A DNA stretch of 64,000 bases from Bacteroidota bacterium (lineage in GTDB: Bacteria; Bacteroidota; Bacteroidia; Bacteroidales; JAAUTT01). This document shows positions 4,696 through 46,715 of the stretch, in pieces. The DNA lies in contig JAUZOO010000009.1 of assembly GCA_030706405.1 (NCBI GenBank), positions 62,001-126,000 on the forward strand, given 5' to 3'. The notes beneath the pieces are model-generated. The model ran no database searches. It was not told where the DNA came from and was given only the letters and a program-made list of their open reading frames with translations. Made by a program: the position numbers and the translations under genes. Numbering within the stretch: position 1 is the stretch's first letter; every line of letters begins with the position of its first letter.

Positions 4696-5911
4696 TCCTT
4701 AGCGCTTTAATAATTTTCAACCTGCTGATGATAAACACCGGGTATAGCCCGATAATCAGTGTGAAGATGAATACCGTTAGCGCCTGGTTATAAAATACCG
4801 ATGGCATTATGGAGAATGAGAGGTATGGGTCGAAACCCATTTCCAGCATCATTTCTCCGGCCTGTCCGGTCATTAGTATAGGATGAAACATAAAATACCA
4901 GATTACCGGTATGCTGGCTACAATACCGGCTATAACGCCCACCATGCCAATAAAAATCGTTTCGAACACAAGCACACTGGCCAGCTTGCTTTTCTGCATC
5001 CCAATGGCAACGAGCACTCCCATCTCTTTTTTTCGCTCTGCAACCATCATCATAATAGTGCCCAAAATGCCAAACCCGATGATAACGTACAAAATTCCTT
5101 TGGTGATGACGCCCTGCGCACGGTCGCTTTCAATCTGTTTCAGAAGTATGCGGTTCATCTCCTGCCAGTCCATCACCTCAAAATCTTTGCCCAGTGATTT
5201 TTTTAGGCTTTGAAACACCGGTGGCACGGCATCCTTATCCGTAACCATAATCACCACCGAGGTTAACCTGCCCGATGCAGAAAAAAGTTCCTGGCATTGG
5301 GCTACCAGCATGTAAACCACGGTGCGGTCGAGCTCGGGCGAAGGCTGTTTTACGATTCCCCGTACAGGGTATTTGCCCGCTGCGCTGCTGCCATGAAATC
5401 CCTGTCCGATAAGCACCAGCGTGTCGCCCACGTTCAGTTTCATGAAACCGGCCAGGCCGCTGCCAATCACCACGCCGTTGTCGTTTGGGCGGAGATAGTT
5501 TCCATAAATGATTTTTTTCGAAATGCGGGTAATGCTGTCCTCCTTCTGCGGGTCGATACCCAGTACCAGCACGCCTTTGGTGATTTCTTCGGACGAGGCC
5601 AGGGCAAAGTTCTCCAGTCGTGGGGTGAGCATCGTAACCCCTGACGTTTGCCGGATTGTCCGTTCGACTTCGGGCGTATAAACAAGCGTGTTATTGATGA
5701 CTTTATCGTCCCAATAGCCGGCTTTGTGAATTTGAATGTATCCCGAATAAAAATTGACCACCGTTTTGATGTACTGCTCGTACGATCCTTCCTGCATCGA
5801 CGTCATAAACGCCGACAACACCACCCCGAAAAATATCGAAGCCGTGGTAATCAGCGTGCGGCGTTTGTTTCGCCAGATATTTCGCCATGCAAGGGAGATA
5901 TGTTCGAACAT
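4691..5911 (-). CDS. ABC transporter permease, FtsX/MacB family (second subunit)
   Basis: 406 residues with the same plan as its neighbour: membrane helix at about 20-40 (TLITTASIFFGVVLSAFM), periplasmic MacB-like domain, and three helices in the last third, with the docking segment MVAERKKEMGVLVAIGMQKSKL. The two permeases are paralogues, not copies. It stands second in the operon, after the LolA-like gene and the GC-rich palindromic element. A heterodimeric permease next to a LolA-like periplasmic protein suggests lipoprotein or lipid trafficking in the envelope. This is inference from context. Confidence 0.9.
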   Translation of the reverse strand: MFEHISLAWRNIWRNKRRTLITTASIFFGVVLSAFMTSMQEGSYEQYIKTVVNFYSGYIQIHKAGYWDDKVINNTLVYTPEVERTIRQTSGVTMLTPRLENFALASSEEITKGVLVLGIDPQKEDSITRISKKIIYGNYLRPNDNGVVIGSGLAGFMKLNVGDTLVLIGQGFHGSSAAGKYPVRGIVKQPSPELDRTVVYMLVAQCQELFSASGRLTSVVIMVTDKDAVPPVFQSLKKSLGKDFEVMDWQEMNRILLKQIESDRAQGVITKGILYVIIGFGILGTIMMMVAERKKEMGVLVAIGMQKSKLASVLVFETIFIGMVGVIAGIVASIPVIWYFMFHPILMTGQAGEMMLEMGFDPYLSFSIMPSVFYNQALTVFIFTLIIGLYPVFIISRLKIIKALRN

Positions 5912-28934: not shown

Positions 28935-29067
28935 AAAAAATATTTATTGGGTATATTGGTTAGGATAATTTATTTGAGCGTGTCTTTTTTATAGGTATTT
29001 TAACCTATATTTATAACTAATAGGTTTGGTAACTTATAAATATTATATATAGCTATAATAACCTATA

Positions 29068-29075
29068 TAATTTTG
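29068..29075 (+). promoter_or_regulatory. Probable satD promoter -7 element
   Basis: TAATTTTG, a perfect match to TAnnTTTG, 26 bp before the start codon, in an AT-rich stretch (28940-29100) with repeated AACCTATAT-type words. No clear -33 TTG at the right spacing. Confidence 0.45.
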
Positions 29076-32257: not shown

Positions 32258-32629
32258 ATGCATACCAGAAAAATTGGGATTACTTTAGTCGTATTGCTAA
32301 TAGGGGTTGTATTTGCATTACCAAACTGTAAAAAAGATACTGTTCAACCTACCTATAACAATCCAGTGGATACTACGTCCACTACTAACCAGATTGTCAT
32401 ATCAGAAATGGCTTTCAATCCTTCGTCAACCACTGTTAGTGTTGGCACTACTGTAACATGGGCAAATAGAGATAGCCTGGCACATACAGTAACCAGTAGT
32501 AATAATACCTTTGATAGCGGAAATATAACTTATGGTAGTTCCTATTCATATACCTTCACTACTGAAGGTACCTATACGTATTATTGTAAAAATCATAGCT
32601 ATATGACTGGGACTGTGATTGTGAAATAA
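32258..32629 (+). CDS. Cupredoxin lipoprotein, copy 2
   Basis: 123 residues, same plan as copy 1: lipoprotein-type N-terminus ending at C24 with KKD, a shorter Thr/Ser linker, and copper ligands H76, C110, H113 and M116 (CKNHSYM). The signal peptide and leader DNA are more alike between the copies than the linker is. It probably acts with copy 1 as an envelope electron carrier. No partner oxidase or reductase is adjacent. Confidence 0.88.
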   Translation: MHTRKIGITLVVLLIGVVFALPNCKKDTVQPTYNNPVDTTSTTNQIVISEMAFNPSSTTVSVGTTVTWANRDSLAHTVTSSNNTFDSGNITYGSSYSYTFTTEGTYTYYCKNHSYMTGTVIVK

Positions 32630-32654
32630 TGGATTGCGAATGACGAAATAAATA

Positions 32655-32745
32655 AGAGATTTAAAACGCAAGGACGCAGAGATACAAAAAAAGGATATTG
32701 AATATCATTACTTTGTAGCTTGGTGCCTTTGCGTTTTTGTTTTAG
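32655..32745. repeat. GCAAGGACGCAGAG-type stutter with complementary end (possible terminator)
   Basis: AAAACGCAAGGACGCAGAG at about 32663 pairs at distance with CCTTTGCGTTTTTG at about 32728. This gives a long-loop hairpin ending in T-rich sequence between the convergent cupredoxin and flavin-protein genes. Confidence 0.5.
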
Positions 32746-32751
32746 CTTAAA

Positions 32752-33177
32752 TCACCCAAAGGTGATGTATTCCTTCGGTTTAAGGTTTACTTCCCAGTTC
32801 CAGTAATTAGCTTTTCCTTTGGCTATCCTGAAAATAATAAGCGCAGGACTGTCGAAATCAATTCCCATCATCTTTAAAAAAGGCCGATCCACCAAACATT
32901 TTTTCTTTAGTTCGATATCGGTTACAAATTCGGCTTTACCCGCTACCCGTAAAGTTTCACCTGCATTTGGTCCCGGCTTGTAAAAACAGACCTCAATATT
33001 CGGATTATTGCGGATTTGATTCACCATCTCTTTAACTTCTCCGGTTTGGAAATAGAAACCGGTTTCGTCGGCAAACCAAAAGCCCAGAGCCCTCACTCGG
33101 GGTTGTTCGTCTTCGGCTGTTGCCAGAAAACAAATGGGATTTTCGTTTGCAAAACGGATTGCATCTTGAATGTTCAT
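32752..33177 (-). CDS. Pyridoxamine 5'-phosphate oxidase-family flavin protein
   Basis: 141 residues, the small split-barrel type. NIQDAIRFANENPICFLATAEDEQPRVRALGFWFADETGFYFQTGEVKEMVNQIRNNPNIEVCFYKPG is the typical FMN-binding sequence of this family, with CFLAT strand, R-x-R and a helix carrying K/R. The LRVAGKAEFVTD strand follows. Many such proteins are F420- or FMN-binding reductases of unknown substrate. It lies 28 bp downstream of the ferredoxin-nitroreductase gene on the same strand and may share electrons with it. Confidence 0.88.
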   Translation of the reverse strand: MNIQDAIRFANENPICFLATAEDEQPRVRALGFWFADETGFYFQTGEVKEMVNQIRNNPNIEVCFYKPGPNAGETLRVAGKAEFVTDIELKKKCLVDRPFLKMMGIDFDSPALIIFRIAKGKANYWNWEVNLKPKEYITFG

Positions 33178-42606: not shown

Positions 42607-42966
42607 ATGAACAACTTTGGATATACCATAACCCGCGACCGGCAAATTGATTTTGACAAACTGCCCAGGGATATTTATCGCGAGCTGTGTCAAAAGGAGC
42701 CTTCGGTTAAGGCTTGCATCAGCTGCGGGACATGCGGTGCGACTTGTAGTGCGGCTCAGTTTACCGATTTCAGTCTGCGCAAATACATCCTGTTGCTTCG
42801 CCGCGGAGATCATAAAGAAGTTGCACAAAATATTGATAAATGTATGTTTTGCGGAAAATGCCAGTTGGCTTGTCCGATGGGAGTAAATACGCGGAACGTA
42901 ATTCACAGTATTCAACAGATAATAACGTCAAACCTCATAACCTTAAACGAGAATGCTGGTATTTGA
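42607..42966 (+). CDS. Small HdrC-like 2x[4Fe-4S] protein
   Basis: 119 residues from the ATG at 42607. Motifs C37-x2-C40-x2-C43-x3-C47 (CISCGTCGATCS) and C79-x2-C82-x2-C85-x3-C89 (CMFCGKCQLACP). It overlaps the next gene by 14 bp. It is a second HdrC homologue, shorter than the first, and probably the wire between the soluble HdrA/B part and the membrane subunit that follows. Confidence 0.88.
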   Translation: MNNFGYTITRDRQIDFDKLPRDIYRELCQKEPSVKACISCGTCGATCSAAQFTDFSLRKYILLLRRGDHKEVAQNIDKCMFCGKCQLACPMGVNTRNVIHSIQQIITSNLITLNENAGI

Positions 42967-44794
42967 TTGGTTTGTACTTCCTTTTACGCTTGGCCTCGTT
43001 TACCTGGTAGTTACACTGCTGGTGAAATATTTTAGGTGGGTAAAGAATTTACCTGTCGATGAATTCGCCAAAGTGAAAAAGGGCGTGTTGTCGACTAAGA
43101 CATTTTCGGCCATCCGCGAAGTCTTTCTTGAAAGTCTTCTGCACCGTAAAATTTTTAAGGTAAATCCCTTGTTGGGATATATGCACACAAGCTTGGCCTT
43201 TGGCTGGTTTCTGCTCATCTTAATTGGTAACTGGGAAAGTCGTATCTTTTATCACGGACACGTTAGCCCGCCGTATGTGCCTATTTTCTTCCGCTTTTTC
43301 AATCCTCATCCCGTTGGATTTAAGTTGGAGGCGATGTTTTCGTTCCTGATGGATTTAACGCTTTTGGTTGTGTTGAGCGGCGTTACGCTTGCTTGGCTTA
43401 AACGTATGCGTTCCCGTTTCTTTGGAATGAAAAAAACAACCGTTTTACATATGGGCGACCGGTTTGCGCTGGCTTCGTTGTGGTTTATTTTCCCGATGCG
43501 GTTTCTGGCCGAGAGCTTTACCTCCGGCGCTTATGGCGGTGGGCATTTTCTGACTGCCAATTCGGGAGCTTTCTTTGCTGGTTTTCTTCCTGTTGAATCG
43601 TTGGTATACCCTGCCTGGTGGGCGTATTCGCTGGCTCTGGGAACCTTCTTCGTAGCCTTGCCCATGTCGCGTTACATGCACATTCCTACAGAAATCGTGT
43701 TGATATTTCTTCGCAAATACGGTGTTTCTGAACAAAGCATTTTTACATCGTATACCCAGGTTGAAATCAATTCCTGCTCACGTTGCGGAATCTGTATCGA
43801 CCCTTGTCAGCTGGCTTCATCGGCAAATATCAGGGGCGTGCAGAGTGTTTACCATCTTCAGTCTATCCGTAACTGTGCCGTAGATAACGACAAATCGCTC
43901 AACTGCCTGATGTGTGGTCGTTGTGACAATGTTTGCCCGGTAGGTATCGATATTGCTTCTATCCGTAAGGCTAACCGTAAACAACAGGCCGCACAGAAAG
44001 AAAACGTGTACCGGTATGTTCCGGAAGGAAATGCTGCGAAAGCCGATGTCATCTTCTTTGCCGGATGTATGACGCATCTGCAACCATCGGTTAAAAAGGC
44101 GATGACCGGACTGTTAAAACATGCCGGCATTAGTTACTGGTTTATGGACGAATCCGGAAGCGTTTGCTGCGGTCGTCCGCTGATGCTAGCGGGAAAAGAA
44201 GCTCAGGCCCGCGAACTGATGGCCAACAACAAGGCCAAGATAGTAGCCAGTGGCGCCAAATTGTTTGTAACGTCGTGCCCGATATGTTACAAGGTTTTTA
44301 AAGAAGAATATGGCTTGAACATTGAAGTGATGCACCATAGCGAATACCTGTTGCAACTGGTGGAATCGAAAAAGATTTTGGTGAATCGTCAGGATGTAAA
44401 GGCGGTTTATCACGATCCTTGCGAACTTGGACGTGGTGCCGGGATTTACGCCCAGCCACGGCAACTGCTAAAGAGTGTGGTGTCGCTGCAACCGGTATCG
44501 CAGGACAAAGAAAATGCGCTTTGTTGTGGCGGAAGTCTTGCTAATATTAAGATTTCGAATCCGGAACGAAAAATGATTACGGCTGATGCGGTGTCCGTTT
44601 TAACCGCTAATAACCCGGATGTGCTGGTTACCGGTTGTCCCATGTGTAAACGCACCTTTGCACAGGCTTCGTCGGTACGGGTGTTGGATATTGCCGAGGT
44701 GCTTTCGGGAGCACTGGTTCTAAAACAGCCAACGGCTTTGATAAAAGTTAAAAATGAAGAAAGATTGGCTATACAGCCGGTGCTAATTCGTTGA
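42953..44794 (+). CDS. Membrane-anchored HdrE-HdrD-like fusion protein
   Basis: 613 residues. The N-terminal half is membrane-bound (helices about 5-25, 75-98, 125-150, 175-195, 220-250) with conserved His residues such as those in YMHTSLAFGW and SRYMHIP, typical of a NarI/HdrE-type cytochrome b. Then come two [4Fe-4S] motifs (CSRCGICIDPC; CLMCGRCDNVCPVG) and two CCG domains (FFAGCM...VCCGRP...SCPICY; HDPCELG...LCCGGS...GCPMCKRTF), as in HdrD/DsrK. It should link the complex to the quinone pool. Last gene of the operon. Confidence 0.9.
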   Translation: MLVFDWFVLPFTLGLVYLVVTLLVKYFRWVKNLPVDEFAKVKKGVLSTKTFSAIREVFLESLLHRKIFKVNPLLGYMHTSLAFGWFLLILIGNWESRIFYHGHVSPPYVPIFFRFFNPHPVGFKLEAMFSFLMDLTLLVVLSGVTLAWLKRMRSRFFGMKKTTVLHMGDRFALASLWFIFPMRFLAESFTSGAYGGGHFLTANSGAFFAGFLPVESLVYPAWWAYSLALGTFFVALPMSRYMHIPTEIVLIFLRKYGVSEQSIFTSYTQVEINSCSRCGICIDPCQLASSANIRGVQSVYHLQSIRNCAVDNDKSLNCLMCGRCDNVCPVGIDIASIRKANRKQQAAQKENVYRYVPEGNAAKADVIFFAGCMTHLQPSVKKAMTGLLKHAGISYWFMDESGSVCCGRPLMLAGKEAQARELMANNKAKIVASGAKLFVTSCPICYKVFKEEYGLNIEVMHHSEYLLQLVESKKILVNRQDVKAVYHDPCELGRGAGIYAQPRQLLKSVVSLQPVSQDKENALCCGGSLANIKISNPERKMITADAVSVLTANNPDVLVTGCPMCKRTFAQASSVRVLDIAEVLSGALVLKQPTALIKVKNEERLAIQPVLIR

Positions 44795-44846: not shown

Positions 44847-44939
44847 GTTGAATGGCTTTTAATAATTTTCCAGAACAAGGTATAGAAAGAACCTTCTGAC
44901 AAAATACTCAGGTTTATACCCCGTTCAGGTTTTTCGCCG

Positions 44940-45210
44940 CGCGATCTCCCGCGGGAAATTTCCTGCCCTGATTTCCAAACATGAGATTTCCCTCGGGAGA
45001 TTTGCTGCCTGAGTTTTTAAATGGCAATTTTCCACGAGAAATCGTGCGCCTGAGTTTTTAGAAACCATATTTCCCACGGGAAATGTGTCGCCTTGGTTTT
45101 TAGAAGGTAATTTCCCCGGGGAAATCCCGTGCCTGAAGTTTTAGACGCCATTTCTCCCGCGAGAGATTGAACGTCTGACTTTTTAGACGGCAAATTTCCT
45201 GCGGGAGAAA
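44940..45210. repeat. Array of seven helically phased palindromes
   Basis: Seven units of about 42 bp, each with a palindrome of consensus ATTTCCC-NC-GGGAAAT. Centres fall at about 44951, 44993, 45034, 45076, 45117, 45159 and 45201. The steps are 42, 41, 42, 41, 42 and 42 bp, mean 41.7, or four turns of B-DNA. The spacers share GCCTGAGTTTTTAGA, more loosely. Units differ in sequence yet keep the pairing. Confidence 0.85.
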
Positions 45211-45260
45211 CCTCGCCCGGATTCCCGAATAGCATTTTGGCGCACGTTAATCCGCTGTTA

Positions 45261-45292
45261 AATAAAAAAGCCGGACAATTGCCCGGCTTCTC
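45261..45292 (-). terminator. Terminator of the uxaE-uxaC operon
   Basis: On the minus strand GCCGGGCAATTGTCCGGC is followed by TTTTTTATTT, 20 bp after the uxaC stop. Confidence 0.8.
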
Positions 45293-45311: not shown

Positions 45312-46715
45312 TTAGAATTTGAAATAATTCTTAGCGTTGTAATAGCTGATATTTTCCACCATCTGCTCAACAAATTTGATTTCCGAAGCCGGAATTTCGC
45401 CGTTTTCAACATCTTTGGCCAACAGGTTACAAAGGATGCGGCGGAAATAATCGTGACGAGGGTAGGAGAGGAAGCTACGCGAGTCGGTGAGCATACCCAC
45501 AAAACGGCTAAGCAAACCAAGGGTCGAGAGCGCGTTCATTTGTTTTTCCATACCATCTTTCTGGTCGAGGAACCACCATCCCGAGCCAAACTGCATTTTG
45601 CCGGCTACCGAACCGTCGTTGTAGCTGTAAGCGAGGGTTACAAGTAATTCGTTATCGCGCGGGTTGAGGTTGTAAACGATCGATTTGGCAAGTTTGTCTT
45701 CGAGGGCCAGGCGGTCGAAGAATTTCGACATCGGGCGTGCAACTTCGAAGTCGCCGATAGCATCGTAACCGGTATCGGGACCAAGTTTGCGGAACATCTT
45801 GGTGTTGTTGTTACGGATAGCACCGATGTGGAATTGCTGAGTCCAACCTTTTTCGGCATCCATTACCGAGAAGTGATAAAGCATGGCGCTTTTGAATTTC
45901 AGGATTTCTTCCTGATCGAGTTTGCGGCCACCGCGGATTTTAAGGAAAATAATTTTGATTTCGCTGTCTTTGTATTCTTCGGCATAGAAGGTTTCCAAAC
46001 CGTGGTCGGAGAGGCGGCAACCCATCGATTCGAAGAAATTTTGACGTTTTTTCAGGGCGTCGAGCAATTCTTCAAAAGAGTTGATGCTCATTCCGGCAGC
46101 TTTTTCGAGCAAGGCGATGTATTCGTTGTAGCTTTCGGGGCTTTCAACGGCCATAGCCTTGTCGGGACGCCAAGTTGGGAAGACTTTGGTTGAGAGTCCG
46201 GCATCCTTAATTTGTTTGTGATATTCGAGCGAATCGGCCGGATCGTCGGTGGTACAAACCACTTCAACGTTCATCTTTTTGAGGATGCCTTGTACGCTGT
46301 ATTCGGGAGTTTGAAGTTTAGCGGTTACTTCGTCGTAAATTTCTTTGGCGGTGGTGGGGTTCAGCACTTTTTTAACACCAAACGGACGGAGAAGTTCCAG
46401 ATGGGTCCAGTGATAAAGCGGGTTACGCATGGTGTAAGGCACGGTTTCTGCCCATTTCTGGAACTTGGTAAAATCGTCGGCCTTTCCGGTGATGAACTCT
46501 TCGTCGATACCGTTGGCACGCATCGCACGCCATTTATAATGGTCGCCTTCGAGCCATATTTCGGTTAAGTTTTTGAACTGGCGGTTTTCGGCAATAAATT
46601 TGGGGTTGAGGTGACAGTGATAGTCGATAATGGGCAGGTCTTTAGCATGCTCATGATAAAGTTTCTGCGCAGTCTCAGTTTGTAGAATGAAGTTTTCGTC
46701 TAAAAAATTTTTCAT
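45312..46715 (-). CDS. uxaC: Uronate isomerase (glucuronate/galacturonate isomerase)
   Basis: 467 residues, close to 470 in E. coli. It turns D-glucuronate into D-fructuronate and D-galacturonate into D-tagaturonate. N-terminal motif DLPIIDYHCHLNPKFIAENR contains the metal-type His pair; VVCTTDDPADSLEYHKQI, WTQQFHIGAIRNNNTKMF and LGLLSRFVGMLTDSRSFLSYPRHDYFRRILCNLLA are family signatures. Second gene of a leftward uxaE-uxaC unit that faces the other uronate genes. Confidence 0.97.
   Translation of the reverse strand: MKNFLDENFILQTETAQKLYHEHAKDLPIIDYHCHLNPKFIAENRQFKNLTEIWLEGDHYKWRAMRANGIDEEFITGKADDFTKFQKWAETVPYTMRNPLYHWTHLELLRPFGVKKVLNPTTAKEIYDEVTAKLQTPEYSVQGILKKMNVEVVCTTDDPADSLEYHKQIKDAGLSTKVFPTWRPDKAMAVESPESYNEYIALLEKAAGMSINSFEELLDALKKRQNFFESMGCRLSDHGLETFYAEEYKDSEIKIIFLKIRGGRKLDQEEILKFKSAMLYHFSVMDAEKGWTQQFHIGAIRNNNTKMFRKLGPDTGYDAIGDFEVARPMSKFFDRLALEDKLAKSIVYNLNPRDNELLVTLAYSYNDGSVAGKMQFGSGWWFLDQKDGMEKQMNALSTLGLLSRFVGMLTDSRSFLSYPRHDYFRRILCNLLAKDVENGEIPASEIKFVEQMVENISYYNAKNYFKF

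Follow-up and report, generated by a model that had tools for sequence, protein, structure and literature searches.

Seven palindromes spaced 41–42 bp apart in the window (the whole 64,000-nucleotide stretch of DNA analysed here, G000:C21:62001-126000 of a 4.93-Mb assembly) belong to a family of tandem arrays that, in this genome and elsewhere in the phylum, stand upstream of most examined genes encoding DUF6261 (PF19775), a domain family of unknown function. The link between these arrays and DUF6261 is well supported. As to its working, we give slightly less than an even chance to an undescribed two-part module, made up of a DUF6261 gene and its upstream 41–42-bp array, in which DUF6261 would dock on the DNA and of which the window array would be an orphan member. 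Literature searches, mostly of open papers, brought up no description of DUF6261-linked arrays. If true, the reading would provide a lead to the function of DUF6261 and a protein–array pair with a fixed period and an unfixed sequence; among bacterial systems that bind DNA, recognition of spacing and symmetry in place of letters would be unusual.

The window array and its neighbours

The initial annotation had described seven palindromes at 41–42 bp, and this is confirmed: each palindrome is 16 bp long, and the spacing from start to start is 42, 41, 42, 41, 42 and 42 bp. The features are as follows.

42953..44794, plus strand: the Hdr operon's final gene, which runs towards the array
44930..45235, plus strand (that on which the spacer is GCCTGAGTTTTTAGA): orphan tandem array of seven palindrome units of 41–42 bp, with degenerate edges
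44944..44959, no strand: palindrome 1, ATCTCCCGCGGGAAAT; read from the sequence and found by consensus search
44986..45001, no strand: palindrome 2, ATTTCCCTCGGGAGAT; read from the sequence and found by consensus search
45007..45021, plus strand: one copy of the shared spacer, GCCTGAGTTTTTAAA, which recurs every ~41–42 bp
45027..45042, no strand: palindrome 3, ATTTTCCACGAGAAAT; read from the sequence and found by consensus search
45069..45084, no strand: palindrome 4, ATTTCCCACGGGAAAT, with perfect 6-bp arms and a 4-nt centre; from the sequence, consensus search and arm comparison
45110..45125, no strand: palindrome 5, ATTTCCCCGGGGAAAT, perfect; from the sequence, consensus search and arm comparison
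45152..45167, no strand: palindrome 6, TTCTCCCGCGAGAGAT; read from the sequence
45194..45209, no strand: palindrome 7, ATTTCCTGCGGGAGAA; read from the sequence and found by consensus search
45312..46715, minus strand: gene converging on the array, which we take to be uxaC-like

A typical unit of the array proceeds from the 16-bp palindrome (6-bp arms around a 4-nt centre) through about five variable bases to the spacer GCCTGAGTTTTTAGA and a further 4–5 bases. By eye, the shared spacer is itself a weak dyad, CTGA-GTTT-TTAG, located about 21 bp, or two helical turns, from the palindrome centres. Tandem Repeats Finder reported the array with periods of 41, 42 and 83, a repeat search of the window returned five 42-nt copies spaced 41, 42, 41 and 42 apart, and the palindrome consensus, with at most two mismatches, matched 14 times in the window with both strands pooled, where 3.6 matches are expected and none of 100 shuffles reached that count. 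The window array fits the class feature of tandem units of 40–44 bp with dyads. It scores below the criterion for arrays of a single lag (at least 52 of 84) because its spacing alternates, and for the same reason was left out of the list of consensus dyads discussed below. No DUF6261 gene is found directly downstream, where hdr and uxaC-like genes are the neighbours, and the array is therefore classed as an orphan; its spacer and palindrome both recur in the DUF6261-linked C1 array. Elsewhere in the window, at 28990-29069, 29-bp units form a short, A+T-rich tandem array that is unrelated to the palindromes.

The array had been placed at the end of the Hdr operon, which is correct as to position, since hdr ends at 44794 and the opposite-strand gene ends at 45312, whereas a role tied to that operon is unsupported. 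Other arrays of the family are found in gaps flanked by divergent or by tandem genes, so the Hdr operon is not the point. The idea of a regulator dedicated to Hdr or uxaC was rejected: the seven orphan arrays of the genome occupy two convergent, two divergent and three tandem gaps, with the C15:442k array assigned to a divergent gap by reading the sequence, as the automatic choice of open reading frame had taken one on the opposite strand. In G001, a genome of the same genus with no DUF6261 match, the orthologues of hdr (68% identical across 441 aligned residues) and of the uxaC-like gene (75% identical as protein) converge likewise with no array between them, and in G003 and G004, where hdr is not the neighbour of the uxaC-like gene, no array is found behind the latter. 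A terminator scan around the window array found none. Near 45266-45290 on the minus strand a G+C-rich hairpin followed by T's can be made out by eye.

Sister arrays and DUF6261 genes

Searches of the genome by DNA, hairpin model and spacer patterns, together with inspection upstream of its DUF6261 genes, found 12 arrays of 41–42-bp period, five linked to DUF6261 and seven, including that of the window, orphans. Nine carry a GCCTGA-type spacer: the window array and those at C19:138.7k, C15:442k, C6:47.4k, C16:306.9k, C15:240.8k, C6:31.7k and, in reverse, C1:357.8k and C6:9.8k. The spacer is only loosely shared, as the initial annotation had noted within the window array, the form common to all nine being GCCTGAnTTTTTAGAAG. 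Their palindromes vary and include ATTTCC/GGAAAT, ATCCCG/CGGGAT (with a 3-nt centre), ATCCCA/TGGGAT, CTCCAC/GTGGAG and TTACAC-like arms. Similarity between arrays of this genome is confined to the arrays themselves, the exceptions being the C1 and C6 DUF6261 genes and a distinct repeat of 169 bp; in one pair the arrays are 86% alike over 119 bp, or about three units, and the flanks are not shared. The 169-bp repeat (93% identity) occurs at G000:C6:31741-31909 and 32586-32754 (L166), about 850 bp apart, starts inside the last GCCTGA unit of an array, and has hairpins such as GTCCCGTACGGGAC and GTGCCGTAGGCAC close by; it may be another repeat family travelling with array pieces. In both the C1 and the C6 DUF6261-linked arrays (L011 and L166), the GCCTGA strand is opposite to the DUF6261 coding strand.

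The genes adjoining the C1 and C6:31.7k arrays were both identified by Pfam as DUF6261. The genome has five such genes, each with an array directly upstream at lags of 41–42 (z of 9.8 to 20.0 against dinucleotide shuffles), and the upstream arrays of the three remaining genes are of other sequences. Beyond this genome, DUF6261 is present in 14 of the 149 genomes of an order-wide sample and in 11 of the 395 of a phylum-wide one. Of the 73 matches listed for the order sample, loci were available for 32, and all of these but L187, whose frame was not found, were scored, giving 31. When lags of 20–80 were compared over the 500 bp upstream, the best was 41–43, with z at least 6.7, in 27 of these 31 loci (the own-genome five included; the exceptions are L181, L183, L192 and L184), and none of the 30 regions downstream gave z above 3.0. 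Further loci were taken from the best 30 of 93 matches listed, 26 of which have at least 250 bp upstream, and from outside the order, where the 16 loci are all the DUF6261 matches in the phylum sample. A score of at least 52 of 84 at a lag of 40–44 is found in 53 of 73 DUF6261 upstream regions. Downstream the count is 4 of 76, and among background windows, which were drawn from loci that weak matches had brought in, it is 2 of 275; one of the two positive background windows is itself an own-genome array. The remaining 20 of the 73 upstream regions have no array by this criterion. A best lag of exactly 41 or 42 occurs upstream in 54 of 73 cases, downstream in 6 of 76 and in the background in 14 of 275; outside the order it occurs in 14 of 16 upstream regions, several of them low-scoring. 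An annotated DUF6261 gene of Prevotella nigrescens (NZ_CP082843) likewise has an upstream array, with lag 41 and a score of 70. The start codons that delimit the upstream regions were set by script and are doubtful for L238 and L233.

Two loci beside DUF6261, L202 and L206, have strong upstream arrays with best lags of 25 and 48, outside the 41–42 rule, and on the downstream side of these genes the arrays have lag 41. A search for viral relatives of DUF6261 found none; the phage-labelled record MT837725, whose upstream region is outside the scored set, encodes DUF6261.

In the reverse direction, from array to gene, the search pattern consisted of two GCCTGAnnTTTT motifs one unit apart, which matched 44 stretches on genome contigs and one on a viral contig, many of them coding repeats or chance. 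Among 16 source genomes chosen, DUF6261 occurs in four, with 9, 33, 44 and 7 matches (L110, L122, L128 and L129), namely those of Tannerellaceae Roe453_bin14, Pc512_bin80 and Pc512_bin25 and of Prevotellaceae Pc512_bin97. The other 12 gave no DUF6261 match, and four of them (L116, L118, L125 and L130) carry GCCTGA arrays at lags of 40–43 with short open frames alongside; these may be unrelated repeats or a hint of other partners. The reverse test is thus suggestive and not clean, such arrays occurring without a DUF6261 match. Two narrower searches were null: the hairpin model R1, of class 1 palindromes, brought up no array when run on 40 relatives, the 12 loci inspected resembling chance matches, and a two-spacer pattern run over 393 genomes of the order matched the own genome only. 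The former says little because palindromes differ from array to array, and the latter misses genomes with 7 to 18 DUF6261 matches because the spacers differ.

Paired arms and a narrow period

It had been claimed that the palindrome arms vary in sequence yet stay paired. Within class 1 alone (17 units of four arrays, six of the units from the window) no covariation is seen and the arms vary mostly on one side, so the arms were compared over nine own-genome arrays, where the claim does hold. In the 51 units of these arrays, hand-picked with irregular ones included, 4.80 of 6 arm positions pair, as against a mean of 2.87 of 6 (sd 0.17, maximum 3.45 in 2000 re-deals) when the 3′ arms are re-dealt with the arms held fixed, and a mean of 3.47 of 6 (highest 3.78) in shuffled units that could be picked as freely as the real ones. 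Pairing of the own-genome arms survives double changes. Across a broader set, the dyad of the consensus unit reaches p<0.05 in 16 of 52 arrays, where 2.6 are expected, and is not significant on its own in the other 36; dyad symmetry by this test is common, not universal.

Four turns of B-DNA at 10.4–10.5 bp amount to 41.6–42.0 bp. In 53 DUF6261-linked arrays, whose lengths are rough (eight rows gave 0 units), the lag is 41 in 24 arrays, 42 in 23, 43 in three, 40 in two and 44 in one. The units themselves are far more divergent, with a median similarity between arrays of 0.43 after the best rotation and strand, and the correlation between protein identity and unit similarity is weak (Spearman 0.107, as high in none of 500 permutations). 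The DUF6261 proteins of L189 and L196, for example, are 87% identical, and their units are only 0.41 alike, so that any binding by DUF6261 could not be strictly sequence-specific. The earlier suggestion that helical phase is kept, as opposed to units being copied, fits these figures, as 47 of the 53 arrays have a lag of 41 or 42 and their units are mostly unrelated; so narrow a period at such divergence would argue for selection, with inherited unit length a partial alternative that could explain some of it. Free drift of the spacing and loss of pairing, which had been named as grounds for abandoning this suggestion, were both checked for, and neither was seen.

Proposed docking on DNA and the alternatives

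By eye DUF6261 looks helical, many members having a C-terminal stretch that is basic, and its profile gives weak matches to solved structures, mostly of helical proteins. No DNA-binding family, solved structure or recombinase was recognised in the DUF6261 proteins tried. Pfam returned DUF6261 only for the two proteins submitted, with no Nop chain among 28 PDB matches up to E=1, and four proteins gave only weak matches in three other libraries, with no good match to a toxin, defence or phage family (the best being ZorA3 at 5.8e-5 and DNA polymerase IV at 1.8e-4, the latter far under its cut-off).

The most likely working lies at the DNA level: DUF6261, which is probably a helical dimer or oligomer, would settle on the dyads that precede its gene, and their recurrence every four turns, perhaps every two, would keep them along a single side of the helix. 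The protein would thereby form an ordered nucleoprotein row, regulating the gene that encodes it and also covering the orphan sites, while the letters of the dyads would be free to turn over provided that symmetry and phase persist. Autoregulation, nucleoid organisation and spread of the array are candidate purposes. Plasmid centromeres offer a parallel, having iterated, phased ParB or ParR sites beside the gene of the binding protein, much as the phased arrays lie beside the gene of a presumed one, DUF6261; unlike plasmid centromeres, the DUF6261 loci show no recognisable ParA- or ParM-like partner in their flanking frames (12 loci, by eye), and there are up to 44 DUF6261 matches per genome. 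More ambitiously, and with odds that fall well short of even, DUF6261 and its arrays may constitute a new nucleoprotein system in the phylum, in which a small helical protein would read symmetry and four-turn phasing as letters change freely, reach tens of copies in some genomes and seed orphan arrays.

Alternatively, the units may be transcribed into hairpins that act with DUF6261, in a module resembling type III toxin–antitoxin systems or another RNA–protein pairing, with the orphans as extra RNA copies; we regard this as unlikely, though deserving of serious weight. In type III systems (ToxIN, CptIN), tandem repeats lie directly upstream of one gene, as do the DUF6261 arrays with their locus-specific units. 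The present family differs from them in its orphan arrays, seven in this genome having no adjoining DUF6261, in having no convincing toxin or defence match (two proteins in Pfam, four in the three other libraries), and in showing no wobble bias on the gene strand. On that strand the stems of 30 DUF6261-linked arrays contain 28 G-U and 25 A-C mismatches, which argues against RNA there, as a functional RNA should favour G-U. On the spacer strand of the own-genome units the counts are 23 G-U and 13 A-C, a tally with no significance test that leans to RNA; combined with the reverse test, it slightly lowers the docking reading and the more ambitious one and slightly raises that of RNA. As RNA, the window array is predicted to fold more stably than its shuffled versions (z of -7.5 on the plus strand and -4.5 on the minus), a strength that follows from the units being inverted repeats and that any such set would display, and its Rfam matches all fall far below gathering scores, so that known Rfam RNAs were rejected. 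The motif TAnnTTTG, which we take to be the -7 element of this phylum, occurs in 16 of 53 cases in the interval from the array to the start codon (4.2 expected in shuffles, the array ends being rough), and a promoter there would tell against an RNA array. Taken together, the sequence evidence on DNA versus RNA leans both ways with none of it decisive, and by analogy the likeness to TIGR stem-loop arrays and to type III toxin–antitoxin loci keeps RNA readings alive.

Less likely again, and in our view distinctly improbable, is that the arrays are selfish repeats of the REP/BIME kind, in which a dispersing palindrome is mobilised by DUF6261 or an unseen enzyme. REP/BIME elements and RAYT genes, grouped as REPtrons, are short intergenic palindrome arrays beside a dedicated gene with copies elsewhere, as described in PMC3733652, and the DUF6261 arrays are alike in this respect. 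Units are shared without flanks, as in the pair of arrays described above; the distribution is patchy, with up to 44 DUF6261 matches per genome; the orthologous site in G001 is free of an array; and neighbour genes are varied by eye, those of 12 DUF6261 genes showing no evident common theme. The DUF6261–array module does appear to have been gained and to have spread. Against mobilisation of this kind, the Y1 transposase PF01797 is unmatched in the own genome at E<=0.01, where it is matched in 6 of 14 control genomes, and on this ground the REP/RAYT system proper was rejected. DUF6261 gave no recombinase match either, and the units differ from array to array while the period stays at 41–42, which is not the behaviour of one repeat family. 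No GTAG/CGTC tag of the REP/RAYT type is conserved, by eye, in the own-genome units.

It is very unlikely that the arrays are neutral tandem repeats, decaying after slippage, in which inherited unit length alone keeps the period. The edges of the window array are indeed degenerate, and near-identical units (76 to 83 of 84 positions) in 20 of the 53 arrays look like recent homogenisation. Neutral decay would leave unexplained the arms that stay paired through double changes, a period of 41–42 that outlasts sequence similarity where insertions and deletions should have spread it, and the tie of the arrays to one gene family. Guide-RNA arrays, whether CRISPR or the TIGR arrays of Tas (Nop-domain) proteins, were rejected and retain next to no credence: TIGR loci do, as described in PMC12045711, place a multi-unit array beside one gene, with repeats that agree within a locus and differ from one locus to the next and with stem-loop versions that also contain variable palindromes, and the window units do vary over some five bases next to the palindrome, but the near-identical units of 20 of the 53 arrays mean that variable spacers of the CRISPR or TIGR kind are absent there, Nop is unmatched by sequence, and the lag is 41–42, not the 36 nt of processed tigRNAs.

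Genomes with tens of DUF6261 copies would be a natural test bed for array spread and partner co-evolution, and a phased 41–42-bp palindrome array in such a genome would be a reason to check for DUF6261. The expansion is extreme in G395 (L128) and G394 (L122), with 44 matches in 3.1 Mb and 33 in 2.1 Mb, respectively. By eye, several of their arrays have a common backbone like CGGCAAGCTTTCC with differing palindromes. In Prevotellaceae Pc512_bin97 (L129), which has 7 DUF6261 matches, GCCTGATTTTTTGAAAAGCCC repeats every 21 bp, half the usual unit, near position 5250.
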